This document shows positions 15,341 through 64,000 of a stretch of DNA of 64,000 nt, one piece after another. The DNA lies in contig OZ024792.1 in the NCBI GenBank assembly GCA_964017065.1, positions 1,827,254 through 1,891,253 of the forward strand. The letters run 5' to 3'. Under the pieces are notes generated by a model. It was not told where the DNA came from and made no database searches. It saw nothing but the letters and a program-made list of their open reading frames with translations. The position numbers were made by a program, and so were the translations under genes. This DNA is from Haliclona indistincta (lineage: Eukaryota > Porifera > Demospongiae > Haplosclerida > Chalinidae). Numbering within the stretch: the stretch's first letter is position 1; every line of letters begins with the position of its first letter.

Positions 15341-15409
15341 TGTTTCACTGTCTTTCAGTGAAATTACTCATTTTATGGTTAGCATGCTTAACACTCTTTT
15401 CAATGCAAT

Positions 15410-18700: not shown

Positions 18701-18833
18701 GACTGCAAAATTATATAAACACAATTTCTTTCTCTCTTGTTCATGCTGCAGTGTGCCGATGAAGGTAATGGGTGATTATGTCTACATGGATGCAGCATGC
18801 AAGTTACAACATGGAGGATCAAAGGGCAAATAA
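15756..18833 (+). CDS. Gene E: Ig/FN3 receptor with distinct TM and YDVP/YVYM tail
   Basis: Exons: 15756-15831 (signal peptide), 15878-16177 (Ig1), 16230-16622 (Ig2), 16683-16955 (FN3), 17005-17295 (Ig3), 17344-17622 (FN3), 17670-17966 (FN3), 18015-18305 (FN3), 18439-18541 (TM), 18625-18693, 18752-18833 (tail). The join is 2454 bp, 817 residues, open. The ectodomain follows the cluster plan, but the TM (GLIFGVISSGIAVLTLIVLI and on) and the basic juxtamembrane exon (KKRHLSKNKAENKK) have no close match in the other units. The tail is short: VAYDVPMK, then GDYVYMDAACK and a stop. YDVP is a Crk/Nck-type SH2 target pattern and YxxM a PI3K p85 pattern in animals in general; binding here is inference. 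Confidence 0.87.
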
Positions 18834-39606: not shown

Positions 39607-42600
39607 ATGTGTGTGGTGTTGCTGGTAACGTGAGTGGCGTCGCTTTGGGCGGAAACTGTTAATAGAAAATATCCTTCTGATTCAGGTACTCAGCAATGAG
39701 CATGCAAGGATAATTTTCTTTTTTAGGTATCATCTACCTGATGCATGGTGGCTACTGTCTCCCAGAGTACACAGTGATTAGTGACTTTGCTCTGACTGCT
39801 GACAACCCACTCCACTGTGTACTGGCTGGTAGTACAGGAGGAGAAGGAGGACAGTGGACTGGTCCTGACAACGCACCAGTGCAGTGCAGTGGAGGGTCTG
39901 GTCCATTCACCTCAGTCATCAGACCCTACTAACATCACACTGTACAATACAGGAGCTTCATTCACAGGGAAACAACTGTACACATGTACCATAAGTGGAC
40001 AGAACATCAGTGTACAGATTGAGAGTGAGTGACAAATTTCAATGAGCTATAGGAATACTCAATTGTTTGCAGGTAACACAGTCCTATTAGCAATCTACAT
40101 TGATCCTCCAGTTGATATGAAGAGTGTTCCTCAGAACTACACAATACACTGCATCACTACTGGACAGAGTAGCAGTAATATCACTGTTGGAATGTTTCTA
40201 GAGGCACATGGACAATGTTACTATAGTGCTATAGTACCACCAGTAATGGGGTACAGCCAGATCCCTCCTACTGTCAATACACTGAACAGTGCTACTCTCA
40301 CATATTATGACTACTCTGAGGAGGTAGTCTGGAGAGCAGACAGAACAGAGTTTGATGAAACAGAATTTGATGAACAAGGATTCACTAAGTACAAAGCTGA
40401 TCATGACTGGGCTTGTAGAGTTGACAAACCTATCAATCGATATGATGACTTACAAACATGCATCAGAGGTGGGACTATATCGTGCATAGAATACTAAGAT
40501 GTTTATTTCACTGCATGTGTTCAGCTCCCAACTTCACTCCCACTGACCTGACTCTACTCCATATGAATGCCACTAGTGCCACCATCAGCTGGACAGCAGT
40601 GAATGCTACAGAAGATGATGGATATGTTGTGTACAGTACTCCACAATTAATCCACTAACACTACAGCAGTTGATGTTGGTAATGTCACACAGTACACACT
40701 GGAAGGAGTGAAGCTATTCAACAACCACATGTACAATATCAGTGTTAGAGCTTATCAAGATTTACTAGGATCAAAGTCTGTACCATTGATTGTAGTATCC
40801 TCAGGTTAGTATTCGAAATGTTCTAAATCAGTTTTAATTTTTTTATAGCTCTGATTCAGATGCTGAATTGGTCACTTCTAACAAGTATCGCTGACGACAA
40901 CATCATGTATCGTGTGGATTGCATCACTGTCTATATCAATGCTTCCGAGATTGTTCATTGGATGAGGAATGGGCAGATGATACCAACTGCTCATGGTGAA
41001 ACAGTCACTCAAAAACTGATCAATGAATCCAGCTTTGCATACAATAGCTCCTTGCTCATTCAGGAAGGAGTGAGTGGGATAAACAACTTCACCTGTTCAG
41101 CAGTACTAGGAGACACTAAATTGACTCAATCCATCATAATACAAGGTTTCACTATTTAAAAAATCTTAGACAAATTTATTTCCACTCTTTTAGGGCCTAC
41201 TGCTCCACCTCAAAATGTCGAGGTGGATATTTTGTCAGCTGATAGTGTCTCTGTGTCATGGACATCTCCTGTTGATGATGAGGAAGTTAAAGAGTTTATG
41301 ATCAGAGAGATAAATGGGTTAGTGGACGTGAAGACAGCTCAAGGAAATAATTATTCAGCTATTTTGAGCGGGTTAACTCGTGGAATGACCTACACTTTCG
41401 TAGTCCATGCCTTTATAGATTTTGCATCTCCTGCGAGCAATTCTACCAGCATTCTATTTGATGGTGAGTCAGCGAACATGCATTCTAGACCATTAAACAC
41501 ATTTTTCAATGCAGTTCCATCACAAGTCACTTCTCTTCATGTTGATTTATCCTCAAGGACAGTCACATGGGTTCTTCCTCAGGACAGTAGTGATGTCACT
41601 ATGTATCAACTACAGTATACTCCACTGTGCAGTAATGATACTCTTATTACTGATCATGATAATACAACCAACACCAGTATTGATCTACCAGACATTGATC
41701 AAACAGTACCTTACACTATAACTGTGAAAGCAGTGAATAATATTGGACCAGGGCAACAGAAAAACATCACTGTCAAGAGAATTGATACTGAAAGTAAGAG
41801 AAACTTGATATTTGATATTTTTAATCTTGTCTACAGTTCCTGCTAGTGCTCCTGACAATGTCACAGTGACTCATGTTGGAGATAGTGTTATTTGGGTATC
41901 TTGGAGAGAAGCTGACTGCAGACTACGCCACAGTCAGTCACTGGAGTATGTAATGCTGGTAACAATGATCGGGAAGGGCAGCAACTACACCTACTTCATA
42001 CCACTGAGCCAGTCTAGTAGAATGCTAACTGGTCTCAGCTCACTAACTGAGTACAGTATCCAGATGGCACTAAGGAACAACCTAGGACAAGGACCATACA
42101 GTGATCAAGTCAATGTAACCACTTTGATGTCAACTTTAGGTAATCTAGACATTGAAACTTTAAACCCTTTTTGCATGTATTATCAGAGATTTAAAGGGGT
42201 TACAATTTCTGACATAACCAGTCATAATTTCTTTCACCGCATATCCATGCAATAGGATATCCCGCTAATAATTGTAGTGTTCAAGATTTTCTGTGCACTA
42301 CAATTGTAGTAAGATACACTAATAAACATAGGTGGGGTACCTTATCAGCAGCTATCAACCTGGTAGCTCAATGGTAGCTAAAATACAGTTACGAGAATTT
42401 TTCTGTAGCTATACTTACAGCTCATAGCTTGTAGACGAAAATATAACAGTTGTTTTGATTATTCCGAAACTTCAGCTACAGACCCAGAAACTTCAGCTAC
42501 ACAACCACCAGGTTAGTCCTATACTTACTGCGTGCTTTTTATACGTGTACTATATAGTTTCTCCCGGGATAAACATAAGTGTGATTGCTGCCATAGTTAC

Positions 42601-43021
42601 CTTTGTACTGGTAGTGATAGCAATAGTAGCTATTGTTGTGGTTCTTAAGAAAAGGTGAGATACCTCGAAAATGTTGATCATCTATTAACTGATTGTTATT
42701 TTTTAGAAAGACGAAATCATCAAATAAAATTAGCAACTCTGAAGAGTGAGTCTGTTGCTAATGATAGTTCATGACATTCCAACAGTGCTTGTAACAAGCT
42801 TTCTTGCTCTGTGTAGTGTTCCTATGAAGATGAGTGCGTGTGACACTCACACACCTAGTGAACAGCAGCAGTGTGACCATACTGATGATGTCACATATGA
42901 GTTAGCCTGCATGCAATTTATGACACTGATTTCAATAAACTATTATTTTTACCTCAGTGAGCCCATACAGATCAGTGTGTGTGTACAGCAGTATGATCAT
43001 GATACTAATCCAAATGATTGA
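39607..43021 (+). pseudogene. Gene I: C-type 5' half joined to phosphatase-type 3' half, several lesions
   Basis: Exons: 39607-39685 (signal peptide), 39727-40024 (Ig1), 40073-40468 (Ig2), 40525-40804 (FN3), 40849-41145 (Ig3), 41194-41463, 41515-41793, 41837-42139 (three FN3), 42476-42511 (stalk), 42558-42654 (TM), 42707-42745, 42817-42900, 42958-43021 (tail). Lesions: TGA in the signal peptide at 39631 (gene C has TTA), a 5-bp deletion in Ig1 near 39911, a 4-bp insertion in FN3-1 near 40647. Undoing these lengths restores a multiple of three. Up to FN3-1 it is nearly identical to gene C; after the middle of FN3-1 it is G/N type. The tail keeps TYDEPIQISVC and stops early like G. A processed copy is excluded since all introns are present. 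Confidence 0.85.
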
Positions 43022-43635: not shown

Positions 43636-46600
43636 ATGCATTTTGTGATAATAGTAGCATTTCTATTGTCAATTTGGATACAAGCAACTGGAAAATGTCC
43701 TCCTAATTCAGGTAAGACTAGCTATTACTATGACTGAATAAATTTTCTCTTCCAGGGATCTACCTGACGCAGGGTGGCTACTGTCTCCCAGAGTACACAG
43801 TGATCAGTGACTTTGCTCTGACTGCTGACAACCCACTCCACTGTGTACTGGCTGGTAGTACAGGAGGAGAAGGAGGACAGTGGACTGGTCCTGACAACAC
43901 ACCAGTGCAGTGCAGTGGAGGGTCTGGTCCATTCACCTGCTCACAGTCATCAGACCCCACTAACATCACACTGTACAATACAGGAGCTTCATTCACAGGG
44001 AAACAGCTGTACACATGTACTATCAGTGGACAGAGCATCAGTGTACAGATTGAGAGTGAGTAAAATATACACCAGAACTCTTGGATACACTAATAAGCTT
44101 GCCTTGCTTGCAGATAACACAGTCCTATTAGCCATCTACATTGATCCACCAACTGATGTGAAGAGTGTTCCGAACTACACAATACACTGCATCACTACTG
44201 GACAGAGTAGCAGTAATATCACTGTTGGAATGTTTCTAGAGAGACATGGACAATCCTACTATAGTGTTGTAGATCCACCAGTAATAGGGTATAGCCAGAT
44301 CCCTCCTACTGTCAATACACTGAACAGTGCTACTCTCACATATGACTTCTCTGAGCAGGTAGTCTGGAGAGCAGACAGAACAGAGTTTGATGAAACAGAA
44401 TTTGAAGAACAAGGATTCACTAAGTACAATGCTGATCATGACTGGACTTGTGGTGTCAGCTATCCTATCAATGGATATGTTGACTTACAAACATACATCA
44501 GAGGTGAGACTGCACAAGTAATTATACTAAAATTTTATTTCACTATGTTCAGCTCCCAACTTCACTCCCACTAACCTGACTCTACTTCACATGAATTCCA
44601 CTAGTGCCACCATCAGCTGGACAGCAGTGAATGCTACAGAAGCTGATGGATATGTTGTGTACAGTACTCCACAATCCACTAACACTACAGCAGTTGATGT
44701 TGGTAATGTCACACAGTACACACTGGAAGGACTGGTTCCAGGGAACACATACAATATCACAGTGAGAGCATATCAGGATCTACTGGGACCAGAGAGTGAC
44801 AATATTACACTCAAATTAAAAGCAGGTATATTTGTTACATTTAAATGATTACTGTAATTATTTTGTATTCTATAGTAATAATCCAACCTCTCAGTTGGTC
44901 ACTGTTATCAAATCGTACTGATCCAGTAGCTCAGTATCGTGTGTACTGTTCTGCTGCATATGTTATTCCTGAGCACATTGTATGGAGAAAGAATGGCACT
45001 GTTGTGATGAACAGCACATCCACTACAATATCTCACCAGTTAGTGGATGCAGCTACTGACAACTATACCAGTACTCTGACAGTGACTGGAGACCGCCACA
45101 CACAAACCATCTCATGTGGAGCAGAAGTAAAATCATTATCTTATCAAAGTGAAATATCTATCAGTGGTTAGTGGATTATATGCTCCAAAATTATCTCACA
45201 ATGATAATATACAGCTCCTAGTGGTCCTCCTGATGATGTGGCAGTATCTATCTACTCCTCATCCAGTATTACAGTGAGCTGGTCACCTCCAGTGGGAGGA
45301 GCTGATGGATATGTCATCCTCTACTCTACGGATGATGAGAAAGATTACGACATGACACAGCTAGTGGAAGGAGTGTGCCAGACTAGCTCACTGCTGACTG
45401 GACTGAGTGAGGGACAGCTCTACACGATCAGAGTGTTAGCATACAAGGATCTACCATCACTACTGTCTGATCCTGTGCTAGTGAGGATTGATGGTCAGTT
45501 GTGCACAAAATGCTGCCGGGAATATTAATGATCCCTTTAACGCAACTGACGTTTCAGTTTCATTTTCTGAGCCTACATTACTGCTGAAATTATTAGTACT
45601 GCCTTTTTGAATTTGGTACCATCAACATCAACTAATAGTGGTGTGTGTATTACATTTACCTACTTTATTAATGTACCATTTGTTTCAGTTCCTTATCCAG
45701 TTTCTGGTATTGGAGTGGCAAAGATTACTACTAAATTTTTAATAGCTTGGATCCCACCAATTGAAACAGTTGTATCACAGTATAATGTTGTCTATTTCAA
45801 CATGACATGTCCATCAGAGCAACACAGCTCACAGAGTAGTAGTGTGATAGTCAATTCATCATCAACATCTACTCTGGTCTCACTGCAGTCAGGCCAGCTC
45901 TATAACATATCAGTGATAGCTATCAATGCTATTGGTCAGTCATCAGCTGTTAGCATCTCATATTGGACTCCATCAAGCCAAGGTGAGTCAACAAACATTG
46001 TTAGTACACTGTGTATAATGAGACATTCAGTTCCCAGTGCTCCTCCTGAGATGGTAAATGTTAGTTCAGTACATGGATCATCATCCATTACTATTGTGAG
46101 ATGGGGAGAAGTACCTTGCCAGCATCATAATGGAGAAATTTTCAGATATGCTGTGAAGTACATTAGAGGACAGAATCAAACTCAAGGAGTGACTGTAATG
46201 GTGGATGGTCATGCAACCACTCTATATCTGGAGCCACTGACTGAGTACAGTATAATGGTTGCAGCTGTGAACAGCAATGGAACTGGAATATTCAGTGAAC
46301 CAGTTTACATTATAGTACAGCAAGGTCTGCATATAATAATTATTGTTAATACTTTCATGTGTCATTCTCAGTTTATCAGTGTCTTGTTGTTATAGCTGCA
46401 TTAATTGTGTCCGCTTCATTCCTCAGTTAACATGATAGAAGGTGCTGTTGCTGGCAGTGTTGTTGGTGTTCTGATGTTACTACTGGTAGTGTTGACTATC
46501 ATCGTTCTAGTGATATTGTTTGCTGTTAGAAAGTACGAAGCTACTTTTGGAGGGTGTGATGTTAGAGAGGGTGTGTTGGGACTATCATTCAACTGTTGCT

Positions 46601-47342
46601 CAACCAGATTAGTATCACATGACTGTATGACTATAAGTTCTCTATTTCAACACAAAGTGAACTGTTTTTATTTTTTATTTTATCGTTGAGATTGTCGAAG
46701 ATGAGCCCTAATTGATATTCCCAACATGAATACACACCATCTGTATACCCAACAGTAGATATTTTGCATGTGCTTGATTTGAGAGACTAATACCACAAAT
46801 AATAATTATGGTAGTTTTTAATAATTTTACGTATAATAATATTTTACGGAGCATAATCGTAATTATTCTAAAAGTGCTATGACTATCTCTAAACTTGATT
46901 TTTCTTATTTTTATAGGAAATGTAAACCATTAAAAAACAGCAAAAATGCTGATAAAGTTACCTATGAGTGAGAATGATATCTGTGCAGTAGTACACGTGT
47001 AATGTGTAAAAATTGCATTAAACTCTAATGCAGTGCCCCTATGAAGATGAGTGTGTGTGAGGCATACTCCACTCACACACCTAGTGAGCAGCAGAAGTGT
47101 GACCATACTGGTGATGTCACCTATGAGTGAGTTCAATGCAATTTTTTGACATTTTGACTACAACTTTTGTCTGCAGTGAGCCTATGAAGATGAGTGTGTG
47201 TGAGACATACTCTACTAGTGGGCGGCAGTGTGACCATGCTGGTGACGTCATCCGAATGACCGAATGTGCAGCTTACATCAGTCATCCTGCAGAGAGAAAG
47301 CAGCTACAACAGCAAGATCCTGATTACACTGATATTCAATAG
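43636..47342 (+). CDS. Gene J: Ig/FN3 receptor with YDxP tail, complete
   Basis: Exons: 43636-43711 (signal peptide, MHFVIIVAFLLSIWIQATG), 43756-44055 (Ig1), 44114-44503 (Ig2), 44553-44825 (FN3), 44876-45166 (Ig3), 45215-45493, 45689-45982, 46031-46324 (three FN3), 46427-46532 (TM), 46917-46967, 47034-47126, 47177-47342 (tail). The join is 2613 bp, 870 residues, open. Same architecture as gene C, and the 3' two thirds are nearly identical to it, including loss of the final Tyr (ends YTDIQ). The 5' end differs: J has the type I signal peptide, C type II. Ig2 lacks one codon compared with paralogues (KSVPNYT). Tail: TYDAPMKMSVCEAYST, TYDEPMKMSVCETYST, AAYISH. Confidence 0.88.
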
Positions 47343-47598: not shown

Positions 47599-49850
47599 AT
47601 GTGCATGGTGTTGCTGGTAACATCAGTTGCGTCGCTTTGGGCCGGAAACTGTTAAAGAAAATATCCTTTTGATTCAGATACACAGCAACGAGCATGCAAG
47701 GATAATTTTCTTTCTTAGGTATCATCTACCTGATGCATGGTGGCTACTGTCTCTCAGAGTAGACAGTGATCAGTGACTTTGCTCTGACTGCTGACAACCC
47801 ACTCCACTGTGTACTGGCTGGTAGTACAGGAGGAGAAGGAGGACAGTGGACTGGTCCTGACAACACAGCAGTGCAGTGCAGTGGAGGGTCTGGTCCATTC
47901 ACCTGCTCATAGTCATCAGACCCCACTAACATCACACTGTACAAGAATATTACAGGAGATCAATTCGCAGGAAAACAGCTGTACACATGTACTACCACAT
48001 CTGTGTACAGATTGAGAGTGAGTGACAAATAATTAGGGAGGCACGGTAGTGACTCCCTATGTAGGGATGAACGAGAAAACAAGATGGCGGCTACATACAA
48101 TGTATTAGCGTTCAAACGCTGATATTCCGCCTTGTGATGAATTTTAAACGTCCAAAAACACTTAGATCTGCTCTCTAGCGTTGCCCCATCTTGCAGTAGC
48201 AAGGAGATTGCTCGGAATTGTTACTAAAGTGACGAACCTGGAAACGGTGAAAATCGAGTTTCGTCATCTTCGTCTTCTTCTTTCTTCTTCTTCTTCTTCT
48301 TCTTTCTTCAGCGCGCCTAGCGCCTTTATGCGAGCAGTGCCGAGACCAAAACACCCACGAACAGTCGTGAAATTCTCCTGGCAGGTGCCTTTCGAACTTC
48401 GTTTTTAGCGAAACGGCGATATAAATTCCGCGACTTCTCGATCGTGATCCATTGTCAGCTAAGTGTTAGACGCCATTATTGTGATTGCGCAATACGCACG
48501 TGACCAAGCAGTTGTTAGCGCACGTGACCAAGCACTAGCTTGAGTATCGCCGCGCCGTATCAATCACAGAGAACACATAATTTATTTGTCTGGAGTATTC
48601 GAAGAACGGTAAGCTCGTGTAGGATCACTATTCTGCGCTTGCCAGACTATTATAACCTGTCCTCCGTGTCTACAAACAAGTGTGGGCGGGGCTCGTGTGC
48701 ACTGCGTTGGCGAGCTGATATGACAATCAATTTTTAGCTGTAATAATTATAAAGAAAAGGCATCAACAACAGTAAAAGTAACTAATGGTAGAAACAAAGA
48801 CGGCTCAGTACATGCATAATAATTATTGAACTGCACTTCACTGAAAAAGAAAAAAGGACACAAACAAGAAATTAAAAAGATTTCTATCGAAATCAAAAGG
48901 ATGCAGTGATGAAGAAATCTACTACTGGTCCACAATGTAAACCAACAAGGAACAACCATGGAATGGTAACACGATTGACTTGCTAACAGACCATAGATCC
49001 CTACATCAGTGGCTGTACATGAGATCGATATTTTTGTCACAAGCTGAATTCAATTCAATGCACGTCATGTGTCAGTCAACAGCAACTAGCTGAACTAGCT
49101 ATAGTCATCCACGGCAGCCACTGATGTAGGGATCTATGGTCTGTTAGCAAGTCAATCGTGTTACCATTCCATGGTTGTTCCTTGTTGGTTTACATTGTGG
49201 ACCAGTAGTAGATTTCTTCATCACTGCATCCTTTTGATTTCGATAGAAATCTTTTTAATTTCTTGTAATTAGAGCAATGAAAATATTCAGTTATTGTTTG
49301 CAGGGAACACAGTCCTATTAGCCATCTACATTAATCATCCAGTTGTTAGGAAGAGTGTTCTTCAGAACTACACAATACACTGCATCACTACTGGTCAGAG
49401 TAGCAGTAATATCCATGTTGGAATGTTTCTAGAGAATATTTCTATAGTGTTGTAGATCCACCAGTAACAGGGTACAGCCAGATCCCTCCTACTGTCAATA
49501 CACAGATTCATTTTAGGTATATTTGTTACATTAAAATGATTACTGTAATAATTTTGTATTCAATCCAGCCTCTCAGTTGGTCTCTGTTATCAAATCGTAC
49601 TAATCCAGTAGCTCAGTATCGTGTGTACTGTTCTGCTGCATATGTTATTCCTGAGCACATTGTATGGAGAAAGAATGGCACTGTTGTGAAGAACAGCACA
49701 TCCACTACAATATCTCACCAGTTAGTGGATGCAGCTACTGACAACTATACCAATACTCTGACAGTGACTGGAGACCATCACACACAAACCATCTCATGTG
49801 GAGTACATCATGTTTCACTGTCTTTCAATGAAATTACTCATTTTATGGTT
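47599..49850 (+). pseudogene. Gene K: decayed receptor split by TE-A, sister of D
   Basis: Signal-peptide exon at 47599 with its donor changed (ttcag followed by at, not gt). Ig1 exon from 47719 has stop codons TAG near 47759 and 47910. TE-A is inserted at 48035-49265 in the following intron. The Ig2 remnant 49304-49515 shows the same fusion to the FN3 end as gene D. The Ig3 exon from about 49562 is intact at the site where D has its MITE. Sequence after about 49800 passes into the gene L flank exactly as D passes into the gene E flank. TM and tail are absent. Confidence 0.85.
48035..49265 (-). mobile_element. TE-A, full copy in inverted orientation, TAATT target duplication
   Basis: 1231 bp, complement of 22500-23726. 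Flanked by TAATT at 48030-48034 and 49266-49270. The unfilled site is seen in gene D at about 14450-14465. It contains a TTC-rich microsatellite at 48267-48310 and the palindrome at 48866-49265. Confidence 0.85.
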
Positions 49851-50243: not shown

Positions 50244-53188
50244 ATGCATTTAGTGATAATAGTAGCAGTTCTGTTGTCAATTTGGACACAAGCTAATGGA
50301 AAATGTCCTAAGTCAGGTAAGATTAGCTATTACTATGACTGAATAAAATTTTCTCTTCCAGGTATCTATCTGATGCATGGTGGCTACTGTCTCCCAGAGT
50401 ACACAGTGATCAGTGACTTTGCTCTGACTGCTGACAACCCACTCCACTGTGTACTGGCTGGTAGTACAGGAGGAGAAGGAGGACAGTGGACTGGTCCTGA
50501 CAACACACCAGTGCAGTGCAGTGGAGGGTCTGGTCCATTCACCTGCTCACAGTCATCAGACCCCACTAACATCACACTGTACAAGCATAATACAAGACCT
50601 CAATTCACAGGGAAACCACTGTACACATGTGCCATCAGTGGACAGAGCATCAGTGTGCAGATTGAGAGTGAGTGACAAATTACAATGAGCTATAGGAATA
50701 CTCAATTGTTTGCAGATAACACAGTTCTATTAGCCATCTACATTGATCCACCATCTGATATGAAGACTGTTCCTCAGAACTACACAATACACTGCATCAC
50801 TACTGGACAGAGTAACAGTGATATCACTGTTGGAATTTTTCTTGAGAGACATGCACAAAATTTTTATAATGGCACTAATATTATTCCACCAGTAATAGGG
50901 TACAGCCAGATCCCTCCTACTGTCAATACACTGAACAGTACTACTCTCACATATGACTACTCTGAGGAGGTAGTCTGGAGAGCAGACAGAACAGAGTTTG
51001 ATGAAACAGAATTTGATGACCTAGGATTCACTAAGTACAATGCTGATCATGACTGGGCTTGTAGAGTTGACAATCCTATCAGTGGATATGATGACTTACA
51101 AACATACATCAGAGGTGAGAGCTATCATGCATAAATACTAAAATGCTTTTTTTCGCTTTGTTCAGCTCCCAACTTCACTCCCACTAACCTGACTCTACTC
51201 CACATGAATGCCACTAGTGCCACCATCAGCTGGACAGCAGTGAATGCTACAGAAGCTGATGGATATGTTGTGTACAGTACTCCACAATCCACTAACACTA
51301 CAGCAGTTGATGTTGGTAATGTCACACAGTACACACTGGAAGGACTGGTTCCAGGGAACACATACAATATCACAGTGAGAGCATATCAGGATCTACTGGG
51401 ACCAGAGAGTAGCTGTATTCAACCAAAAATACCTACAGGTATTAATTTCACACCCATTGTAATAAATGCTTTAATAAAACTTCAGTGCTGTTCAAACCTC
51501 TGAATTTGTCACTGTTATCAAATCGTACTAATCCAGTAGCTCAGTATCGTGTATACTGTTCTGCTGCATATGTTATTCCTGAGCGCATTGTATGGAGAAA
51601 GAATGGCACTGTTGTGATGAACAGCACATCCACTACAATATCTCATCAGTTAGTGGATGCAGCTACTGACAACTATACCAATACTCTGACAGTGATTGGA
51701 GACCATCACACACAAACCATCTCATGTGGGACAGAGTATGATCCAATATTCTACCAAAATCAGAGTAGCATAACAATTAATGGTATGTAGTAAATTTTCT
51801 ATCAGAAACAGATCAGAATTTCTCTATCAGCTCCTAGTGGTCCTCCTGATGATGTGGCAGTGTCTATCAACTCCTCATCCAGTATTACAGTGAGCTGGTC
51901 ACCTCCAGTGGGAGGAGCTGATGGATATGTCATCTTATACAATGAAGCTACATGGCTAGTGGAAGGAGGGGACCAGACTAGCTCACTGCTGACTGAACTG
52001 AGTGAGGGACAGCTCTACACTATCAGAGTGTTAGCATACAAGGACCTACCATCACTACTGTCTGATCCTGTCACAGAGCGAGTAACATTTGATGGTAAGA
52101 AGTGTAAAATATAATATTATAATCATTATTACTTTTTGTATGGTGGTAGAACCAGATGCAACTAGTACTAGCAGTACAACCTTTTCTGTAACACAAGGTT
52201 TGTAATTGGTAATGATTATCTTCTGATTGTTATTTACTTTATCCTATATAGTTTTAACATCAGAAACTCCTGGAGTACAAAATCCATGTAAATCATCTGA
52301 CACTATTAATTTTTACGATTGCACATTGTTTCTTAAGCAATAACAAATGGAGCAGGTGCTGTTGCTGGCAGTGTTGTTGGTGTCATTGTGCTTCTACTGG
52401 TAGTGTTGACTATCATTGCTCTGGTGGTACTATTTGCTCTCAGAAAGTGAGGAATTGCTTGTGTTGGGACTTTGTTGTACATGTACTATAATTCAACTGT
52501 TGATACCGTACTCTTGGAACACATGACACAGTTTCTATTTCACTAAAATGTAATTTGTTTATAATTTTATGAGATTTTTGAAGATGAGCCTTAATTGATA
52601 TTCCCAACATGAATACACACAATCTGTATACCCAACAGTAGATATTTTGTGTACGACTTTGAGAGCTGGACTAGCACTACAAATATGGAGTTGTTGTAGA
52701 TAACATTTTTTACACAGCATAGTCATGTGTTAATCTGAATGAGTTAAAATGATTATTTTAAAAATGAAATTATATTTTAAAGGAAATGTAAATCATTAGA
52801 TATCAACAAAAATGCAGCTGCAGTTACCTATGAGTGAGTATACTGCATGATGGTCAGTACACATGTAATGTTCAACTCTCATGCAGTGTTCCTATGAAGA
52901 TGAGTGTGTGTGAGGCATACTTTACTCACACACCTAGTGAACAGCAGAAGTGTGACCATACTGGTGATGTCACATATGAGTGAGTTTGCAGTACAGTTTA
53001 TGACATCTTGATGTTTTTCGTTTATCTACAGTGAGCCTATGAAGATGAGTGTGTGTGAGGCATACTCTACTAGTGGGCAGCAGCTGTGTGACAATACTGG
53101 TGATGTCATCCAAATGACCGTCAGTCATCCTGCAGAGAGAAAGCAGCTACAACAGCAAGATCCTGATTACACTGATATTCAATACTAG
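50244..53188 (+). CDS. Gene L: Ig/FN3 receptor with YDxP tail, ectodomain twin of phosphatase M
   Basis: Exons: 50244-50316 (signal peptide), 50362-50667 (Ig1), 50716-51114 (Ig2), 51166-51438 (FN3), 51486-51782 (Ig3), 51831-52094 (FN3), 52150-52197 and 52252-52287 (stalk), 52338-52446 (TM), 52783-52833, 52887-52979, 53032-53188 (tail). The join is 2106 bp, 701 residues, open. Ig1 to TM is almost identical in DNA to 53586-55666 of gene M, introns included (shared loop FYNGTNIIPPVIGY; shared NEATWLVEGG). After the TM exon L carries the tail: TYDVPMKMSVCEAYFT, TYDEPMKMSVCEAYST, no AAYISH, ends YTDIQY. The signal peptide and flank are type I, M's are type II, so the duplication began after exon 1. 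Confidence 0.9.
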
Positions 53189-53307
53189 GACTGTGTGACA
53201 CTTGCACTGATAACATTACATGATAGCTAGCATTAATTCTTGTTAGTTTGCTATCTAGACGTAACTATTCAAAACAAACTATAGTGTCTTGCGAGGCTAT
53301 ACGTGTA

Positions 53308-53444
53308 CGTGATGCATGAATACGTTCGTTATTCATATTGACCATTGTGTTGAAGGGCTACAACACAGTTCCTGTTTCTGCAACAAGTTGATTAGTACTG
53401 ATCTACTGGACCGCAGTCTATATTCATCTCCACGGACTGCTGGA
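53308..53444 (+). promoter_or_regulatory. Type II upstream flank (gene M)
   Basis: A block with gtgatgcatgaat, gttattcata, gaccattgtgt and ttgattagtact recurs before C (9895-10034), D (13875-14017), I (39470-39606) and K (47456-47598), always followed by a signal peptide of the M(C/R)V..LVTLV type. Probable promoter and 5' UTR; no core promoter motif is assigned. Confidence 0.45.
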
Positions 53445-56400
53445 ATGCGTGTGATGTTCCTGGTAACGTTAGTGGCGACGTCGCTTTTGTCGCAGACTAC
53501 AACAACAAAATGTCTTCCTGATTCAGGTAGACGGCTACACAGCAACAAATGCAAATCGGTAAGCTTTCTTCTTTTTCTCTTCCAGGTATCTACCTGATGC
53601 ATGGTGGCTACTGTCTCCCAGAGTACACAGTGATCAGTGACTTTGCTCTGACTGCTGACAACCCACTCCACTGTGTACTGGCTGGTAGTACAGGAGGAGA
53701 AGGAGGAAATTGGACTGGTCCTGACAACACACCAGTGCAGTGCAGTGGAGGGTCTGGTCCATTCACCTGCTCACAGTCATCAGACCCCACTAACATCACA
53801 CTGTACAAGCATAATACAAGACCTCAATTCACAGGGAAACCACTGTACACATGTGCCATCAGTGGACAGAGCATCAGTGTGCAGATTGAGAGTGAGTGAC
53901 AAATTACAATGAGCTATAGGAATACTCAATTGTTTGCAGATAACACAGTTCTATTAGCCATCTACATTGATCCACCATCTGATATGAAGAGTGTTCCTCA
54001 GAACTACACAATACACTGCATCACTACTGGACAGAGTAACAGTGATATCACTGTTGGAATTTTTCTTGAGAGACATGCACAAAATTTTTATAATGGCACT
54101 AATATTATTCCACCAGTAATAGGGTACAGCCAGATCCCTCCTACTGTCAATACACTGAACAGTACTACTCTCACATATGACTACTCTGAGGAGGTAGTCT
54201 GGAGAGCAGACAGAACAGAGTTTGATGAAACAGAATTTGATGACCTAGGATTCACTAAGTACAATGCTGATCATGACTGGGCTTGTAGAGTTGACAATCC
54301 TATCAGTGGATATGATGACTTACAAACATACATCAGAGGTGAGAGCTATCATGCATAAATACTAAAATGCTTTTTTTCGCTTTGTTCAGCTCCCAACTTC
54401 ACTCCCACTAACCTGACTCTACTCCACATGAATGCCACTAGTGCCACCATCAGCTGGACAGCAGTGAATGCTACAGAAGCTGATGGATATGTTGTGTACA
54501 GTACTCCACAATCCACTAACACTACAGCAGTTGATGTTGGTAATGTCACACAGTACACACTGGAAGGACTGGTTCCAGGGAACACATACAATATCACAGT
54601 GAGAGCATATCAGGATCTACTGGGACCAGAGAGTAGCTGTATTCAACCAAAAATACCTACAGGTATTAATTTCACACCCATTGTAATAAATGCTTTAATA
54701 AAACTTCAGTGCTGTTCAAACCTCTGAATTTGTCACTGTTATCAAATCGTACTAATCCAGTAGCTGAGTATCGTGTGTACTGTTCTGCTACATATGTTAT
54801 TCCTGAGCACATTGTATGGAGAAAGAATGGCACTGTTGTGATGAACAGCACATCCACTACAATATCTCACCAGTTAGTGGATGCAGCTACTGACAACTAT
54901 ACCAATACTCTGACAGTGACTGGAGACCATCACACACAAACCATCTCATGTGGAGCAGAGTATGATCTAATATTCTACCAAAATCAGTATAATATAACAA
55001 TTAATGGTATGTAGTAAATTTTCTATCAGAAACAGTTCAAAATTTCTCTATCAGCTCCTAGTGGTCCTCCTGATGATGTGGCAGTGTCTATCAACTCCTC
55101 ATCCAGTATTACAGTGAGCTGGTCACCTCCAGTGGGAGGAGCTGATGGATATGTCATCTTATACAATGAAGCTACATGGCTAGTGGAAGGAGGGGACCAG
55201 ACTAGCTCACTGCTGACTGGACTGAGTGAGGGACAGCTCTACACTATCAGAGTGTTAGCATACAAGGACCTACCATCACTACTGTCTGATCCTGTCACAG
55301 AGCGAGTAACATTTGATGGTAATAAGTATAAAATATGTAATCATTATTACTTTTTGTATGGTGGTAGAACCAGATGCAACATCTAGTACTAGCAGTACAA
55401 CCTTTTTTGTAACACAAGGTTTGTAATTGGTAATGACTATCTTCATTGTTATCTACATTATCCTATTGTAGTTTTAACATCAGAAACTCCTGGAGTACAA
55501 AATCCATGTAAATCATCTGACACTATTAATTTTTACGATTGCACATTGTTTCTTAAGCAATAACAAATGGAGCAGGTGCTGTTGCTGGCAGTGTTGTTGG
55601 TGTTCTGATGTTACTACTGGTAGTGTTGACTATCATTGCTCTGGTGATACTGTTTGCTGTCAGAAAGTGAGGAATTGCTTGTGTTGGGACTTTTTGGTAC
55701 ATGTACTATAATCACCTGTTGATACTGTACTCTTGGAACACATGACACAGTTTCTATTTCACCAAAAAGTAAACAGTTTTTGTTTCATGAGGCTTGATAG
55801 TTGACACAAGGGACCAACAGTACTAGATACTATTTCACTGCTTTTCTATACATTGACGAAGTATATCATGGTTTGTATGTTTTTACCAGCGAAAAATGAA
55901 TTTATCAAAAACAAACAAACCTAAAAGTTTTTTTACAAATCGTTAATTTCAGTTTCTTCCCAGGTCTAGAAAAAAGATACAAAGAAGCAGTGACCCGACA
56001 GAACTGACTAAAGGAATGTACGAGAATGTTGATGAGAAAACGAACCCACTTACAATAAGTAAGAGATAGAAAAATTGATTGTTTATATTATTGAGACATT
56101 AACAGTTGAAGATAATTATGACTATATTGAAATGGAAGAGAAACCCATCATACCAGCAAGTATCGGTATGGTATTCTATAAAAGTGTGACTTTTCCCTAC
56201 TATGCTACTCAGATTGTAAAGAGCCTGACTATGATTACACTGCATCTGTGAATTCTTTTGATCTACGCATCCCGTCAACTCTACCGATTTCTCTCACTAA
56301 GATGAGTAGCTATGTTGAAGGATGTCACAGTGACTGCAATGAAGCTTTTTATACTCAATTTGAGGTCTAGGATTGGTCGATATAAAATAGCATTGAATGA

Positions 56401-58860
56401 TTCTCTGCATTTTAGGAGCTGTATGCATATGAAGACAGAAGCTTAGCTACAGTTGGGTTCAGTAAGGAAAATATGCCTCGGAACCGCTTCAAAAACATAA
56501 CAACCTGTAAGGATATGCATTGCTTATTCATGCCTCTGTTAAAATTTAATTTTCCAGATGACAGCAGTAGAGTGGTACTTCGACCTATATTAGAGCATGA
56601 TAATGATTTTATTAATGCTAGTTATATAAACGTGAGTTGTTGTGAAAGTAGCTACAAAGTGGGAAACCTCTATTGTTTATAAACAGGGATATAGCTCATC
56701 TAGAAAGTTTATTGCAGCTCAAGGTACTCTATTTTTTGTTTTTACTAGTGAATCACTGTGCTCTTTGTAATCCTCAACATTAAGGTCCCGTGAAGAAAAC
56801 AGTTGTGGACTTTTGGCGTTTGATATGGCAAGAGCGCCCTCATTGTATTGTGATGGTAACCAATGTTGTGGAAGGAGGGAAGATCAAATGTGAGCAGTAC
56901 TGGCCCACGAGAGACCAGGGTTCACAAACACATGGACCATTTGACGTCACTAGTCTAAATGAAGTCATCCTTCCTGATCTTGTTATTCGCACTTTTGAAG
57001 TTTCTGTAAGTCACAAATGAATATCATCAGTATAAATTATTAATCAATCATTATTAGATTGAAAGTAGCTCATCAAGTCTGAATGTCACTCAATACCACT
57101 TCACCTCCTGGCCTGATCATGGAGTCCCTGAATATGGTACTCCTCTTATGATACTGCACAAGAAAGCCACTGCTGACTGGAGGAGAGGAGGTCCACCCAT
57201 CCTGGTCCACTGCAGCGCTGGTGTGGGTCGTACTGGCACCTTCATCACCATCGACCTAGCCTTGGAGCAAGCTGAGAGGGAAGGATTGGTGGACATTGCT
57301 GGGATTGTGAACAGACTCAGAGAACAGAGAATGCAGATGGTGCAGTCTGTGGTATGCCGAGTACATCAAATGAAATTGTAATACTTTTCCTTTTTCCTTT
57401 AGCAACAGTACATATTTCTTCATGATGCTATATTGGAGCACGTAATCTGTGGTCAGACAGAAATACCCAGTGACCAGTTGGTCACAGAGGTAGCCAAACT
57501 GGGAGTAATAGCTCCTGATACTGGGAGGAGCAAACTACAGGACCAGTTTGAAGTTAGTTACATCTACATGCATATTTTGGTGGTTAGCTGTAGCACATAG
57601 TTTTATCATTATCAGTTTAGATTATAGTGCATGATAATGTTTCATTGACAACAATGATTGCTGTCAATGATAAAATGCTGTCAATATACAATGACAACAA
57701 TGTCAAGATTTTCATTCTGAAAAAAATAATAGATTCATAATTATTTGTTCTCTATAGTTGCTGGATAAGGTCACAGCTGCTCCTGGTGAAGGAATATTTA
57801 CAACTGCATTGAACCATCAGCACAAGAATAGAACACAATGCAACTTACCAAGTAAAAATGGATGCAGAAATTCTGTATCACAATTTAATCATTTCCAGAT
57901 GAGTGTTGTAGAGTACCACTGAAAGGAGAATATCCCGGATATATTCATGCTAGCTTTGTGAATGTAAGCAGTTAAAGTTAAGTATAGGTTTCTCTACACT
58001 TTTTTCACTCAGGGATATCGTGAAAAGAACACCTTTATCATAGCTCAAAGCCCAATGAATAACACTATCAGAGACTTCTGGAAGATGGTGGTAGACTACA
58101 AAGTACCAGCAGTGGTTGTGCTGTGTGATCTGAAGGAGGACAATGTAAGTCAGCGCATGAATGTAGCAGGATCAGAACAGTGTCGTTCTCCATATTAGAC
58201 TCTGTACCAGTACTGGCCACAACAAGAATACGGAGAAGTAGAGTATGGAGACATGCATGTTGAAGTACAGTCTGAGGCGCAAGATGATGGACATGTGAGA
58301 AGAAGCATCAAGATCCACCAGGAGGTGCAAGAATTACTGCATAACCATACAAATGCAAAATAATTTTTTCCTCACAGGATCAGGAACCGTTTCATGTTAT
58401 CCAGTTTCAAGTGACCATGTGGCCGCCCAGTGGAGTGGTTAAGAGTCCAGCTCAAATAGTTGGTCTAATAGATTTCGTACTAGCTGTGTGTCGTAGGAGA
58501 GAAAAAGGACCAGTAGTTGTTCAGTGCAGGTATAAACTAGCTCCAGATGCACTCGCTTCACACCAGTGCAAACTTTTTATCGCTTGTCTACTTCTAGTGA
58601 TACAGTGGGTCGTTCAGGTATGTACTGTGCTATCAGCAATGCTCTGGAGCAGTGCAAGGCAGAGGGAGTAGTGGATGTGTTCCAGGTTGTCAAAGCAATC
58701 AGAATGCAGAAACCAGGAGCAGTGACAACACAGGTAAAGTGGATATCTCTAACTTTGAGTCTCAAAATTAATTTTGTTCTTGTAGGAGCAATACAACCTC
58801 ATTTTTGATGTCGTGGCTGTATTTTTAAAGAATTATGAAAACTATTCCAACTTTACTTAA
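53445..58860 (+). CDS. Gene M: receptor-type tyrosine phosphatase with Ig/FN3 ectodomain
   Basis: Exons: 53445-53526 (SP), 53586-53891 (Ig1), 53940-54338 (Ig2), 54390-54662 (FN3), 54710-55006 (Ig3), 55055-55318 (FN3), 55368-55418 and 55472-55507 (stalk), 55558-55666 (TM), 55964-56058, 56106-56165, 56213-56364, 56416-56506, 56558-56631, 56687-56723, 56785-57005, 57058-57351, 57403-57552, 57758-57851, 57899-57963, 58013-58144, 58199-58324, 58378-58529, 58598-58733, 58786-58860. The join is 3771 bp, 1256 residues. TM lies at about residues 575-605. PTP D1 has NRFKNI, SWPDHG and [10 protein letters not shown], so it should be active. D2 has WPPSG for WPD and [10 protein letters not shown] for the P-loop, so it is probably inactive. 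The juxtamembrane region has YENV (Grb2-type pattern) and YDYIEME. It removes phosphate from tyrosines by family knowledge; the substrate is unknown. Confidence 0.9.
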
Positions 58861-59103: not shown

Positions 59104-62100
59104 TTACATGTGCTGGTAGAGATCAATGAATGCCTTTACTGTTGAATATGTGCTGGCGTACTGGTCCTGTTGAAATAGCAGAAAATAAAATAATTTTTAA
59201 TGGAAACAGGAAAGAGATAGTTTTGTTACCACAGTTGAGACTGCTCCCGGTTTCTGCATTCTAACTGTTTTGACAGTCTGGAACACATCCACCACTCCCT
59301 CTGCCTTGCACTGCTCCAGAGCATTACTGATAGCACAGTACATACCTGAACGACCCACTGTATCACTAGAGAAGAACAACAAACAGAGAGGAACATAAAG
59401 AGAGATGCATTGATCATACCTGCAATGAACTACGACAGGACCTTGTCCCATTGTTTGACGTCTTGTGATCACATTGCTCATCACCTTCAAGATGGTGGCT
59501 GGCTGACGAACCTGACAGTCAGGTGACCAGTCTTTCACCTCATACTGAGCTACCGTCCATTCTTTCTCATTCTATAGTGAGAATAAAGGCACTGCATGGG
59601 TACTTCATGTAGTCAAGCATATGCACCTTGTTGGAGTAGATGAGTAGTTCTCGTAGCACGTACCATCCCTCTCTCTTGAGGTTCTTCAGCTTTAGTGTGA
59701 ACTCACCATACTGCTCTGGCTCCTCAAACTGGGGCCAGTAGCAGTGACACACCTCCTGAAAAGAGCAAAATTACCAACACTCTTTTAATCCTTTCCTAAA
59801 CTTGTAAACCCACCGTATTGTTTTCCTTCATAGAGCACAGCATGACCACTGCTGGCACTTTATAGTCCATCACCATCTTCCAGAAATCTCTGGTCGTGTT
59901 CTCCATAGGACTCTGGGCTATAATGTAGGTCTTCTTCTCTCGATAACCCTGAGTATACGAACATCACTACTCCATTAATCCATTTCAACAAGCACCTTAA
60001 CAAAACTGGCATGAATATAATTCGGATATTCGTCCATTAGTGTAACTCTATAGAGTTCGTCTGAATGAGAATAAGAAATTGAGCTTTAGTGAGTAGCCAT
60101 ACTTACTTGGTAGGTAGCTTTCATCGCGATTCTTCTCAGGAAAAGTAACAGCAGTTTTTGGGCAAATGCTTGTTGGATTTGGAGTGATCTTTTGAAGCAC
60201 CTGTCATCAATGTTATTCGAAATCTGAAGGACAATGTTTCAAAAGCATACCTCAAACTGAGTCAAGAGATTGCTCTTCTTAGTGTATGGATTGCCTTGCT
60301 TCAATTTTGACATGAGTGAGTCAAATTTAGTGCTGTCAACAGCGGTGACTCCACACACTCCTATCTCTACCACAACGTCGTGTATAAACATGTACTGTCC
60401 CTGTTATACATGATTATAATAAACAACACATATAATCAGTGTTCTTAACTCAAGTGAGTTTCTTACTAACATACTTGTATAATCAACAAAGCTATTCATT
60501 AGAATACACCACTTGCCTCTGTTTGCACCATCTGCATCCTCTGTTCTCTTAGTCTGTTGACAATCCCAGCAATGTCTGCTGTTTTTGTTTTTTCGGCTTG
60601 CTCCAAGGCTAGGTCGATGGTGATGAAGGTGCCAGTGCGACCCACACCAGCACTGCAGTGGACCAGGATGGGCCCTCCCTCACTCCTCCATCCCTCCATC
60701 ACTTTCTTGTGCAGAGCCATGATAGGACCAGTGCACTCAGGGACGCCATGATCAGGCCAGGAGGTGAAGTGGTACTGAGTGATTTCTATACCTACCAATT
60801 CCCTAAGCTGTATAACAGAGTAAAACAATTAAGATATGACACTACTTTCTCCTTATACCTCCACTTTGAGTTGACGTTTGGTAATATCAGGGAGTATTGA
60901 TTTACTGAGTGTGGTCACTTTGAAGGGACCATACATTTGGCTTGTGTTCTCCATGGGCCAGTATCGCTCACACTTGGTAGCACTGCTCTCCTTCAGCTTG
61001 GTTACCATGACAATGTACTGTGGAGCTTCCTGCCAGATTAACCGCCAAAAGTCAATAACGGTATTCTTCAAGGGTCCTGTGGAGATTGAAATAATACAGT
61101 ATCAAAGAGTTTTGATAGATGTATTTAACCTTGTGCAGCAATGAATTTCAATGCACTGCTGTACCCCTGTAAAATACAACATGATTACAGCAATTTCCTG
61201 TTTATAAAACTGCATACGTCAACATAGCTGGCGTTGATGAAATCATCTTGACACTCTTCACTACCTGGTATTGGCTTCAGCTTTATTCTGTGACTATCAT
61301 CTGTCATGTGGTGTATAAAACAGTAGTAAATACATTTTATACGAGACCAGCTCCAAGTCATACTAACAAACAGTGATGTTCCTGAATCGATTTTTAAATA
61401 TGTTGTTGTCATTGAAGCCGATACAAACAGCCTTCCTGTCACCTGAGTAAAGTTGCTAAAACAGCAACAACAGAATGAGTGAGCTTTAATTTAAACAGTG
61501 ACACTCTTACTCGATACTCGTCTTTGAATTTCCTGTGGTTTTGGGCGTGGTACCTCGCTAAATGATTTGGTAGATTTTCTAGTTTGACAGGATTAGTTGG
61601 TTTAATGCCGTGACCAAACATGGGTGTGTACAATGCCTCGTTATCAGTAGGAGACGAAACTGCAGGAAAGTCATCATAAATTTCTATCGAGAGTTTCGTT
61701 TGTCTGTCTGCTTCTTCAGGAGGCGACAAAGCTATATTGTGCAGATCATACTTTTAGTCATTGAGACACACTTTATTACCTAACTCAATCTCTTCAAGCT
61801 CACTCTTGGCATTGTATTCAATTGACAACCCTTGCACCATTTTAGGCTTAATACTGTTTTGATATCTCCTGCATACAAGAAAGCAAACTGTATGAATTTT
61901 GATGAGTAGATCACACTTTACCTCCACTGAAGCGAACAAAGAAATATCAACAATAGAGCTATTGGAATTGATAACACTAAGAAGCCAGCCGCAGATCCGT
62001 ATACTATATAGGTGATATCAAAACCCACTATATAAATGAGAATGATAGTAAGTTATATTTTAGCTATAGTTGAAATTTATCACCTGAAGTTGACATCAAA

Positions 62101-64000
62101 GTGGTTACATTGATTTGATCACTGTATGGTCCTTGTCCTAAGTTGTTCCTTAGTGCCATCTGGATACTGTACTCAGTTAGTGAACTGAGACCAGTTAGCA
62201 TTCTACTAGACTGGCTCAGTGGTATGATGTAGGTGGAGTTGCTACCTCTCCCGATCATTGTCACCAGCATTACGTACTTCAGTGACTGACTGTGGCGTAG
62301 TCTGCAGTCAGCTTCTCTCCAAGATACCCAAATAACACTATCTCCAACATGAGTCACTGTGACATTGTCAGGAGCACTAGCAGGAACTGTAGACAAGATT
62401 AAAAATAGCAATTGATACAAAGTTTCTCTTACTTTCAGTATCAATTCTCTTGATAGTAATGTTTTTCTGTTGCCCTGGTCCAATATTATTCACTGCTTTC
62501 ACAGTTATAGTGTAAGGTACTGTTTGATCAATGTCTGGTAGATCAATACTGGTGTTAGTTGTATTATCATGATCAATATTAAGAGTATCATTACTGCACA
62601 GTGGAGTATACTGTAGTTGATACATAGTGACATCGCTACTGTCCTGAGGAAGAACCCATGTGACTGTCCTTGAGGATAAATCAACATGAAGAGAAGTGAC
62701 TTGTGATGGAACTGCATTGAAAAGAGTGGTTAACGGTCTAGAATGCATGTTCGCTGACTCACCATCAAATAGAATGCTGGTAGAATTGCTCGCAGGAGAT
62801 GCAATATCTATAAAGGCATGGACTACGAAAGTGTAGGTCATTCCACGAGTTAGCCCGCTCAAAATAGCTGGAAAATTATTTCCTTGGATCCTTGTCTCAT
62901 CCACAAACCCATTTATCTCTCTGATGATAAACTCTTTAACTTCCTCATCATCAACAGGAGATGCCCATGACACAGAGACACTATCAGCTGACAAAATATG
63001 CACCTCGACATTTTGTGGTGGAGCAGTAGGCCCTAAAAGAGTGGAACTAAATTTGTGTATGACTGCATAAATAGCGAAACCTTGTATTATGATGGATTGA
63101 GTCAATGTAGTGTCTCCTAGTACTGCTGAACAGGTGAAGTTGTTTATCCCACTCACTCCTTCCTGAATGAGCAAGGAGCTATTGTATGCAAAGCTGGATT
63201 CATTGATCAGTTTTTGAGTGACTGTTTCACTATGAGCAGTTGGTATCATCTGCCCATTCCTCATCCAATGAACAATCTCGGAAGCATTGATATAGACAGT
63301 GATGCAATCCACACGATACATGATGTTGTCGTCAGTGATACTTGTCAGAAGTGACCAATTCAGCATCTGAATCTGAGCTATATAAAAAAATTAACACAGA
63401 TTAAGGACATTTCGAATACTAACCTTTTGAGGATACTACAATCAATGGTACAGACTTTGGTCCTAGTAAATCTTGATAAGCTCTAACACTGATATTGTAT
63501 ATGTTGTTGTTGAATAGCTTCACTCCTTCCAGTGTGTACTGTGTGACATTACCAACATCAACTGCTGTAGTGTTAGTGGATTGTGGAGTACTGTACACAA
63601 CATATCCATCAGCTTCTGTAGCATTCACTGCTGTCCAGCTGATGGTGGCACTAGTGGCATTCATGTGAAGTAGAGTCAGGTCAGTGGGAGTGAAGTTGGG
63701 AGCTGAACACAGTGAAATAAAATTTTAGTATAATTATTTTGTACAGTCTCACCTCTGATGTATGTTTGTAAGTCATCAAATGCAATGATAGAGTCGTTGA
63801 CTCTACAAGCCCAGTCATGATCAGCATTGTACTTAGTGAATCCTTGTTCATCAAATTCTGTTTCATCAAACTCTATTTTGTCTGCTCTCCAGACTACCTC
63901 CTCAGAGTAGTCATTTGTGAGAGTAGCACTGTTCAGTGTATTGACAGTAGGAGGGATCTGGCTGTACCCCATTACTGGTGGATCTACAGCATTATAGAAA
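59104..64000 (-). CDS. Gene N: receptor-type tyrosine phosphatase, 5' partial
   Basis: Exons in transcript order: 64000-63753 (part of Ig2), 63702-63424 (FN3), 63377-63081 (Ig3), 63032-62763, 62711-62433, 62386-62084 (three FN3), 62027-61922 ([18 protein letters not shown]...), 61868-61780, 61731-61511, 61455-61368, 61300-61218, 61166-61130, 61076-60859, 60807-60517, 60400-60251, 60200-60107, 60060-59996, 59948-59814, 59755-59627, 59571-59420, 59365-59230, 59166-59104. Joined: 1243 residues, open. D1 has KNRFRNI, SWPDHG and [10 protein letters not shown] (active). D2 has DWSPD and [10 protein letters not shown], catalytic Cys and Arg kept but the loop altered. The donor at 60517/60516 is GC (GAG then gcaagt). 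Ectodomain is the type also found on G, H and I. Convergent with M; the 3' ends are 243 bp apart. Confidence 0.9.

Follow-up and report, generated by a model that had tools for sequence, protein, structure and literature searches.

Near-identical receptor heads on tyrosine and phosphatase tails in a tandem gene array of the sponge Haliclona indistincta

Why should two neighbouring genes of a sponge carry almost the same extracellular part and end in cytoplasmic tails of different kinds? The question is raised by a 64,000-nucleotide stretch of Haliclona indistincta, the window, at positions 1827254-1891253 of contig OZ024792.1 (here C10; other contigs are named likewise) of assembly GCA_964017065.1 (46 contigs, 144 Mb). 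An earlier note, made from the letters alone, had described two receptors there, L and M, that share a head and differ in their tails, a tyrosine tail in L and protein tyrosine phosphatase (PTP) domains in M. We built full exon-by-exon models of L, M and the adjacent gene N, and modelled in part two further phosphatase-tailed genes, P1 and P2. The L-M pair proved to lie within a tandem array of approximately 155 kb. The larger finding is this wider array, and its new element is that the genetics of paired receptors is combined with a phosphatase that forms part of one partner.

The ectodomains and tails of L and M

Gene L (50244..53188, plus strand; 12 exons, 701 amino acids) encodes, in order, a signal peptide, the immunoglobulin (Ig) domains Ig1 and Ig2, the fibronectin type III (Fn3) domain Fn1, Ig3, Fn2, a stalk, a transmembrane (TM) segment and a tyrosine tail. 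Gene M (53445..58860, plus strand; 25 exons, 1256 amino acids) has an L-like ectodomain followed by tandem PTP domains. When both models were rebuilt exon by exon, all introns were GT-AG and the exon phases were compatible. The earlier note had placed the shared part, exons 2 to 9 from Ig1 to TM, at 50362..52446 in L and 53586..55666 in M, both on the plus strand; these coordinates are exact, and exon-by-exon alignment bears out its statement that exons and introns alike are almost identical. The exon identities were 303/306 (exon 2), 398/399 (exon 3), 273/273 (exon 4, Fn1), 284/297 (exon 5, Ig3), 263/264 (exon 6), 47/48 with a 3-base gap (exon 7), 36/36 (exon 8) and 100/109 (TM exon), a range from 91.7% (TM) to 100% (Fn1 and exon 8), and introns 2 to 8 were 92.3-100% identical. 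No single donor could be traced for the exon 5 differences between the two genes. Over Ig1-Ig2-Fn1, one synonymous change in 225 sites and three nonsynonymous changes in 759 sites were counted, and two amino-acid differences were found across these domains, the high similarity of ectodomains that is expected of paired receptors. The near-identical block extends from intron 1 to about 110-127 bases into intron 9, and beyond it similarity is at background. When aligned by force, the signal-peptide exons matched at 46/73 positions; the DNA preceding them was at background. Judged by the alignments, the likeness of L and M is one of homology, not chance.

The cytoplasmic tails differ, as is likewise expected of paired receptors, and here also the earlier note was right: YDxP tyrosine sites in L, two PTP domains in M. 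The L tail (exons 10-12, 52783..53188, plus strand) contains YDVP, YDEP and a C-terminal DYTDIQY; its C-terminal part reads VTYDVPMKMSVCEAYFTHT...VTYDEPMKMSVCEAYSTSG...DPDYTDIQY, followed by the stop. By eye, the tyrosine sites are TYDVP, EAYFT, TYDEP, EAYST and DPDYTDIQY. In YDVP and YDEP alike the Asp codon is split by an intron, and both cytoplasmic sites have the YxxP form of candidate Crk-type docking sites. An immunoreceptor tyrosine-based inhibitory motif (ITIM) is I/V/L/S-x-Y-x-x-I/V/L, and the activating counterpart (ITAM) is a paired YxxL/I. We rejected both identities for the L tail, which has one YxxI and neither an ITIM nor a paired YxxL/I.

In M, juxtamembrane exons with the tyrosines MYENV, NYDYIEM and DYDYTAS (55964..56364, plus strand) lead to a first PTP domain, D1 (56416..57552, plus strand), in which WPDHGVP is present, and a second, D2 (57758..58860, plus strand), without WPD. 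The two halves matched Pfam PF00102 at 3.6e-58 and 1.1e-53. The catalytic WPD loop and HCx5R are retained in D1 of all four array phosphatases (M, N, P1 and P2); these, with their TM segments, have the predicted features of classical receptor PTPs (RPTPs). D2 of M is probably weak or inactive, given the missing Asp. The solved structures nearest to M's PTP part by sequence are PTPRS, LAR and PTPRA (Protein Data Bank, PDB). RPTPs of the LAR (R2A) type have an Ig block at the N terminus, Fn3 repeats next and D1-D2 last; M has the order Ig-Ig-Fn-Ig-Fn, so its likeness to LAR and PTPRS is limited to the PTP part.

The naming of the Ig domains stood in part. Ig1 has a predicted V-like fold (mean pLDDT, predicted local distance difference test, 86.6), and nearly all of the 50 structure matches listed were antibody, T-cell receptor or shark VNAR V domains (query TM-score 0.37-0.61), one of them at an E value below 0.001. 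Ig2 was not confirmed as an Ig fold (mean pLDDT 66.1; no match at E below 0.001 in a structure search). Pfam recognised Fn3 clearly in the ectodomain, and Ig weakly, below the cut-off, in Ig3.

Separate histories of heads and tails in the array

A genome search with the DNA of the M ectodomain gave 53 matches, the majority of them in C10:1.737-1.892 Mb. The array contains 29 Ig1 matches, two of which are halves of one unit, giving 28 head units; 23 of the 29 matches are near full length and stop-free, and 24 units were usable. Four units have PTP tails, P1 (C10:1746673), P2 (C10:1754458), M and N (minus strand), and the remainder mostly have YDxP tails of three types, Y, B and S, with ten of the Y type; some others are broken or lack a recognised tail. 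We therefore rejected an isolated twin pair as the main account, L-M being one case within a large array. Kinase tails gave no match in C10:1.73-1.90 Mb among the PF07714 matches listed, weak evidence given that 133 of 1135 candidates were scored.

The tyrosine tails have a common construction. At 25 of 34 junction rows in the array, YDxP is formed over a split codon (ten Y-type first sites, eight Y-type second sites, three S-type and four B-type); of the other nine, five are B-type first sites that lack the tyrosine donor, one reads YDEL, one lacks an acceptor, one has no donor within reach and one is a spurious match. Stalks do not track tails: class-A stalks precede Y, S and PTP tails, and class-B stalks precede B tails, a PTP tail (N) and, over gaps, Y tails (u14 and u23). 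The assignment of tails to heads follows their order on the DNA; in u11, u14, u16 and u23 the tail or stalk is preceded or interrupted by gaps of several kb.

A tree of the heads of 24 units (four fragments left out), 21 of them labelled by tail and with 9 of 20 inner branches open, required 10 changes among the four tail types. The minimum is 3; shuffled labels gave a mean of 10.8, and 76 of the 200 shuffles needed 10 changes or fewer. A rerun without the four gapped units required 10 changes against 9.7 for shuffled labels, and one without these and the two broken heads required 9 against 8.6. The well-supported (starred) branches alone force three changes for Y, three for B and two for PTP. 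Because tail changes on the head tree are about as many as with shuffled labels, the tail is not predicted by the head.

The phosphatase genes lead to the same point by another route. With the loop exons excluded, the proportion of synonymous differences (pS) between P1 and P2 was 0.174 in heads and 0.096 in PTP tails; between P2 and M the heads were at 0.046 and the PTP tails at 0.76 (saturated), and between M and N at 0.119 and 0.77. No single duplication history yields both the P1-P2 and the P2-M patterns. The PTP loop exons, at pS 0.33-0.39 in comparisons of M, N and P1/P2, were closer than the remaining PTP part, and this likeness indicates that exchange reaches catalytic exons too. In stop-free exon matches that covered 80% of the length or more, the ratio of nonsynonymous to synonymous rates (dN/dS) was 0.52-0.84 in five class-A exons from Ig1 to Fn2, 0.26 and 0.19 in two tyrosine-tail exons and 0.15-0.26 in four PTP exons. 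Constraint is thus stronger on tails than on heads. The discordance of head and tail histories indicates that heads were exchanged or homogenised between differing tails, as in vertebrate paired receptors, whose clustered genes and homogenised ectodomains have their counterpart here. We regard an array with head-tail reassortment as highly probable.

A second regularity concerns the DNA between the two genes. The segment 53189..53526 (plus strand), which comprises the L 3′ flank, the M upstream DNA and the M signal-peptide exon (53445-53526), has a counterpart behind seven of the array's nine other Y-type tails (69-71% alike over approximately 350 aligned bases) and a partial one behind the remaining two. 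The array thus repeats an arrangement in which an M-type start comes soon after a Y-tail gene. The seven downstream partners comprise four short fragments, two units with a broken Ig1 (u15 and u24) and u18, whose head exons are unbroken; among genes with the M-type start, M alone has a PTP tail. The four fragments lie at 14166-15341, 47724-49811, C10:1800918 and C10:1811702, and look as if the downstream gene of the cassette often decays. The second of them (47724..49811, plus strand), between u25 and L, has a stop in Ig1. A repeated stretch with an arginine/lysine-rich frame, perhaps a piece of a mobile element, lies beside broken heads at 48175-48465 and 23400-23600.

The other units in the window upstream of L are all on the plus strand. 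Those with class-A ectodomains are u16 (1..5639, starting before the window; long ectodomain, Y-type tail), u17 (6894..9780; short ectodomain, Y-type tail), u18 (10159..13758; Y-type tail), u20 (15756..18833; short S-type tail with YDVP and then DYVYMD) and u25 (43636..47339; Y-type tail with YDAP and YDEP). Those with class-B ectodomains are u22 (22383..27057; B-type tail), u23 (27690..39353; a Y-type tail about 8.3 kb on, assigned by order only) and u24 (39732..43001; B-type tail, with a frameshift that splits Ig1). The u18 head is 96.7-96.9% identical to the heads of the B-tail units u15 and u24. Multi-kb stretches divide ectodomain from tail exons at 30300-38400, C10:1783.7-1799.6 kb and 1803-1808.8 kb, and are possibly insertions. 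Gene N (59104..64000 in the window, to 64618 overall, minus strand; 24 exons, 1417 amino acids) has a class-B stalk and PTP D1-D2; its first exons lie past the window end, and it is convergent with M, with 243 bases between the stops. N has one GC-AG intron, and its stalk class differs from that of M. In P1 (C10:1746673-1753843) and P2 (C10:1754458-1759614) the PTP tails are alike and the heads are among the most different of the array. An Rfam scan of the window gave no matches.

Paired signalling and its alternatives

Our best explanation of the whole, in which we have slightly less than even confidence, joins head copying in the array to antagonism of L and M at a common ligand. The head (Ig1-Ig2-Fn1; in L and M the whole ectodomain to TM) would have been copied repeatedly among differently tailed genes, most likely by gene conversion. 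Both proteins would stand at the cell surface and bind a common ligand, their heads gathering on one ligand patch. The YDxP tyrosines of L would be phosphorylated by Src-type kinases and then recruit SH2 adaptors of the Crk/Nck type, D1 of M would dephosphorylate L-type tails or their partners, and the ratio of tyrosine-tailed to phosphatase-tailed receptors would set a signalling threshold. The negative partner's phosphatase would be built in, replacing a phosphatase-recruiting ITIM. The earlier note had seen in L and M the logic of paired receptors; its signature stands at the level of the genes, with heads shared across tails throughout the array, whereas the functional part we can only infer, and antagonism of L and M seems to us possible but somewhat doubtful. 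One could go further and envision the two dozen or so receptors as a tail-swapping recognition locus, with homogenised heads on SH2-docking and phosphatase tails, in which a kinase-phosphatase balance would decide between self, symbiont and intruder; we consider this extension unlikely.

Several observations weigh against a pairing of L and M. Of the 297 bases of Ig3, 13 differ; two counting methods class 3-4 of the changes as synonymous and 9-10 as nonsynonymous. A glycosylation sequon, N-W-T, which arose by a two-base change, occurs in M alone among the 29 Ig1 matches; together these suggest that L and M may differ in binding. The differing signal exons and upstream DNA make co-expression doubtful, and the two genes may be regulated differently. 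The position with the M-type start is often lost, u18 being the sole other head there that is not obviously broken. None of the other phosphatase-tailed genes has a twin as close as L is to M, the best other head being 91.4% identical for N, 82.8% for P1 and 94.3% for P2. Moreover, random homogenisation of neighbours would also yield most of the pattern.

The last point belongs to the strongest alternative, concerted evolution with no pairing, in which recombination in the array homogenises heads regardless of tail, and L and M act as separate receptors in different cells and resemble each other simply through lying side by side. We think it rather doubtful but serious. Head likeness spans nearly all units rather than tail partners alone, the broken units u15 and u24 also take part in head sharing, some PTP exons are homogenised as well, and the 5′ regions of L and M differ, all of which it would explain. 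That the tails stayed constrained and distinct during head exchange, and that the L-M block stops near TM, speak against it, though not decisively.

Another scenario is that heads bind one another, or a matrix ligand, from cell to cell, L and M sitting on opposite cells and one head being both ligand and receptor, as in adhesion-type RPTPs. An Ig/Fn3 ectodomain with a tandem PTP part closest in sequence to PTPRS and LAR (PDB) would fit it, near-identical heads would suit homophilic binding, and separate 5′ regions would suit different cells. The alternation of Ig and Fn domains, however, differs from the LAR layout, and head variation from unit to unit would weaken homophily across the array, so that we regard this scenario as improbable.

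Least probable is that L and M are alternative 3′ ends of a single transcription unit, or that an assembly artefact doubled the ectodomain. The two TM exons share their end phase, so that splicing from the L TM exon to the M PTP exons is possible on paper, and only 256 bases separate the L stop from the M ATG; but two 3′ ends need no second ectodomain, the clustered L/M differences and differing flanks are unlike a false duplication, and 46 contigs for 144 Mb suggest long reads. M starts with a separate signal exon and 5′ region, the like of which recurs after other Y-type tails, and we rejected alternative 3′ ends of one gene on this ground. The two findings that the earlier note had named as fatal to its proposal, these same two, thus appear to be largely answered.

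Relatives, known systems and significance

Relatives of the receptors occur outside the array. C1 carries one related unit, whose tail is of the Y type, and C5 another with a weaker tail match. On the minus strand of C9 (4744-4747 kb) lies a divergent RPTP with the domain order kept and Ig1 35-38% identical, which may be useful for rooting the receptor family. In an unrooted PTP tree of five genes, M grouped with the C9 gene at 94/95, just below the tool's support star. A protein-database search with the whole of M gave eight matches at E 1e-10; the two whose heads were compared, Fn3 proteins of Amphimedon queenslandica with no PTP domain listed, have a similar head, and protein P0007 aligned with the L head at 31%. 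Two head-only protein searches (1786 and 666 candidates) gave no match at E 0.001, and a head protein tree that included the Amphimedon and C9 sequences left 15 of 20 inner branches open. On present evidence the family appears to be sponge-like. Among the PTP matches listed, many were clustered at C3:15.62-15.81 Mb, C5:0.92-1.04 Mb and C10:6.16-6.51 Mb, a sign of large phosphatase expansions elsewhere in the genome.

In vertebrate paired receptors the ITIM of the inhibitory tail recruits a phosphatase. In the array, by contrast, the phosphatase sits in the receptor itself and the partner tail is YDxP; expression in the same cell is known for the vertebrate pairs. Set beside Siglec-11 and Siglec-16, the likeness is, as an analogy, close in genetics and looser in biochemistry, because the inhibitory tail there recruits its phosphatase. 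As read from the DNA, the gene layout matches that of immune paired receptors, with outer parts alike and inner parts differing. One account describes Siglec-11 and Siglec-16 as paired receptors whose ectodomain exons were converted under relaxed constraint and whose tails differ (PMC5701461); they share with the array, as do CEACAM and CD300A/C as described, neighbouring genes, ectodomains homogenised by conversion and tails of differing kinds.

Among invertebrates, the Botryllus fester co-receptors (FcoR) and the Hydractinia allorecognition genes are described as Ig-type receptor families, clustered (fuhc locus), whose members differ in tyrosine signalling motifs (PMC12065747). Unlike the array, and as far as the descriptions consulted go, their tails are ITIM or hemITAM and no PTP tail is among the described features. 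With LAR and PTPRS the array phosphatases share a tandem PTP part with an active-looking D1 and Fn3 domains in the ectodomain. We know of no tyrosine-tailed twin with the same head for RPTPs of the LAR/PTPRS kind or of the R3 type. R3 RPTPs have been reported in Amphimedon (PMC5336234); in that description they have one PTP domain and Fn3 only, whereas the array PTP genes have Ig-Ig-Fn-Ig-Fn.

For the L tail, the relevant precedents are YxxP proteins. The sections available of two papers give YxxP as the Crk SH2 consensus, of pre-animal origin, with a Crk ancestor in Amphimedon (PMC5043372), and report that Src phosphorylates the YxxP sites of p130Cas and PTP-PEST reverses this (PMC12071665). 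L resembles p130Cas and the choanoflagellate YxxP transmembrane proteins of these papers in having YxxP sites, as candidate Crk SH2 docking sites, and differs from them, as there described, in having two YDxP sites only and no SH3 or SH2 domain.

The earlier note had known of no sponge system of this kind, and we likewise found none in open-access full text, subscription papers lying mostly outside the search. According to a 2025 review, the candidate allorecognition proteins of sponges, cnidarians and ascidians lack conservation and the mechanisms are unknown (PMC12065747). Sponges show self/non-self recognition, and in this locus they have a concrete and testable candidate family of recognition receptors. 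It bears the mark of paired receptors in the genome, an exchange of heads with retention of tails, and its phosphatase domains lie within the receptor itself. If the proposal is true, sponges would have paired-receptor logic in a phosphatase-in-receptor form, separate from ITAM and ITIM; and if the heads share ligands, the balancing of a kinase against a phosphatase at a common ligand would be a design that is either old or was invented more than once, and that extends beyond vertebrate immunity.

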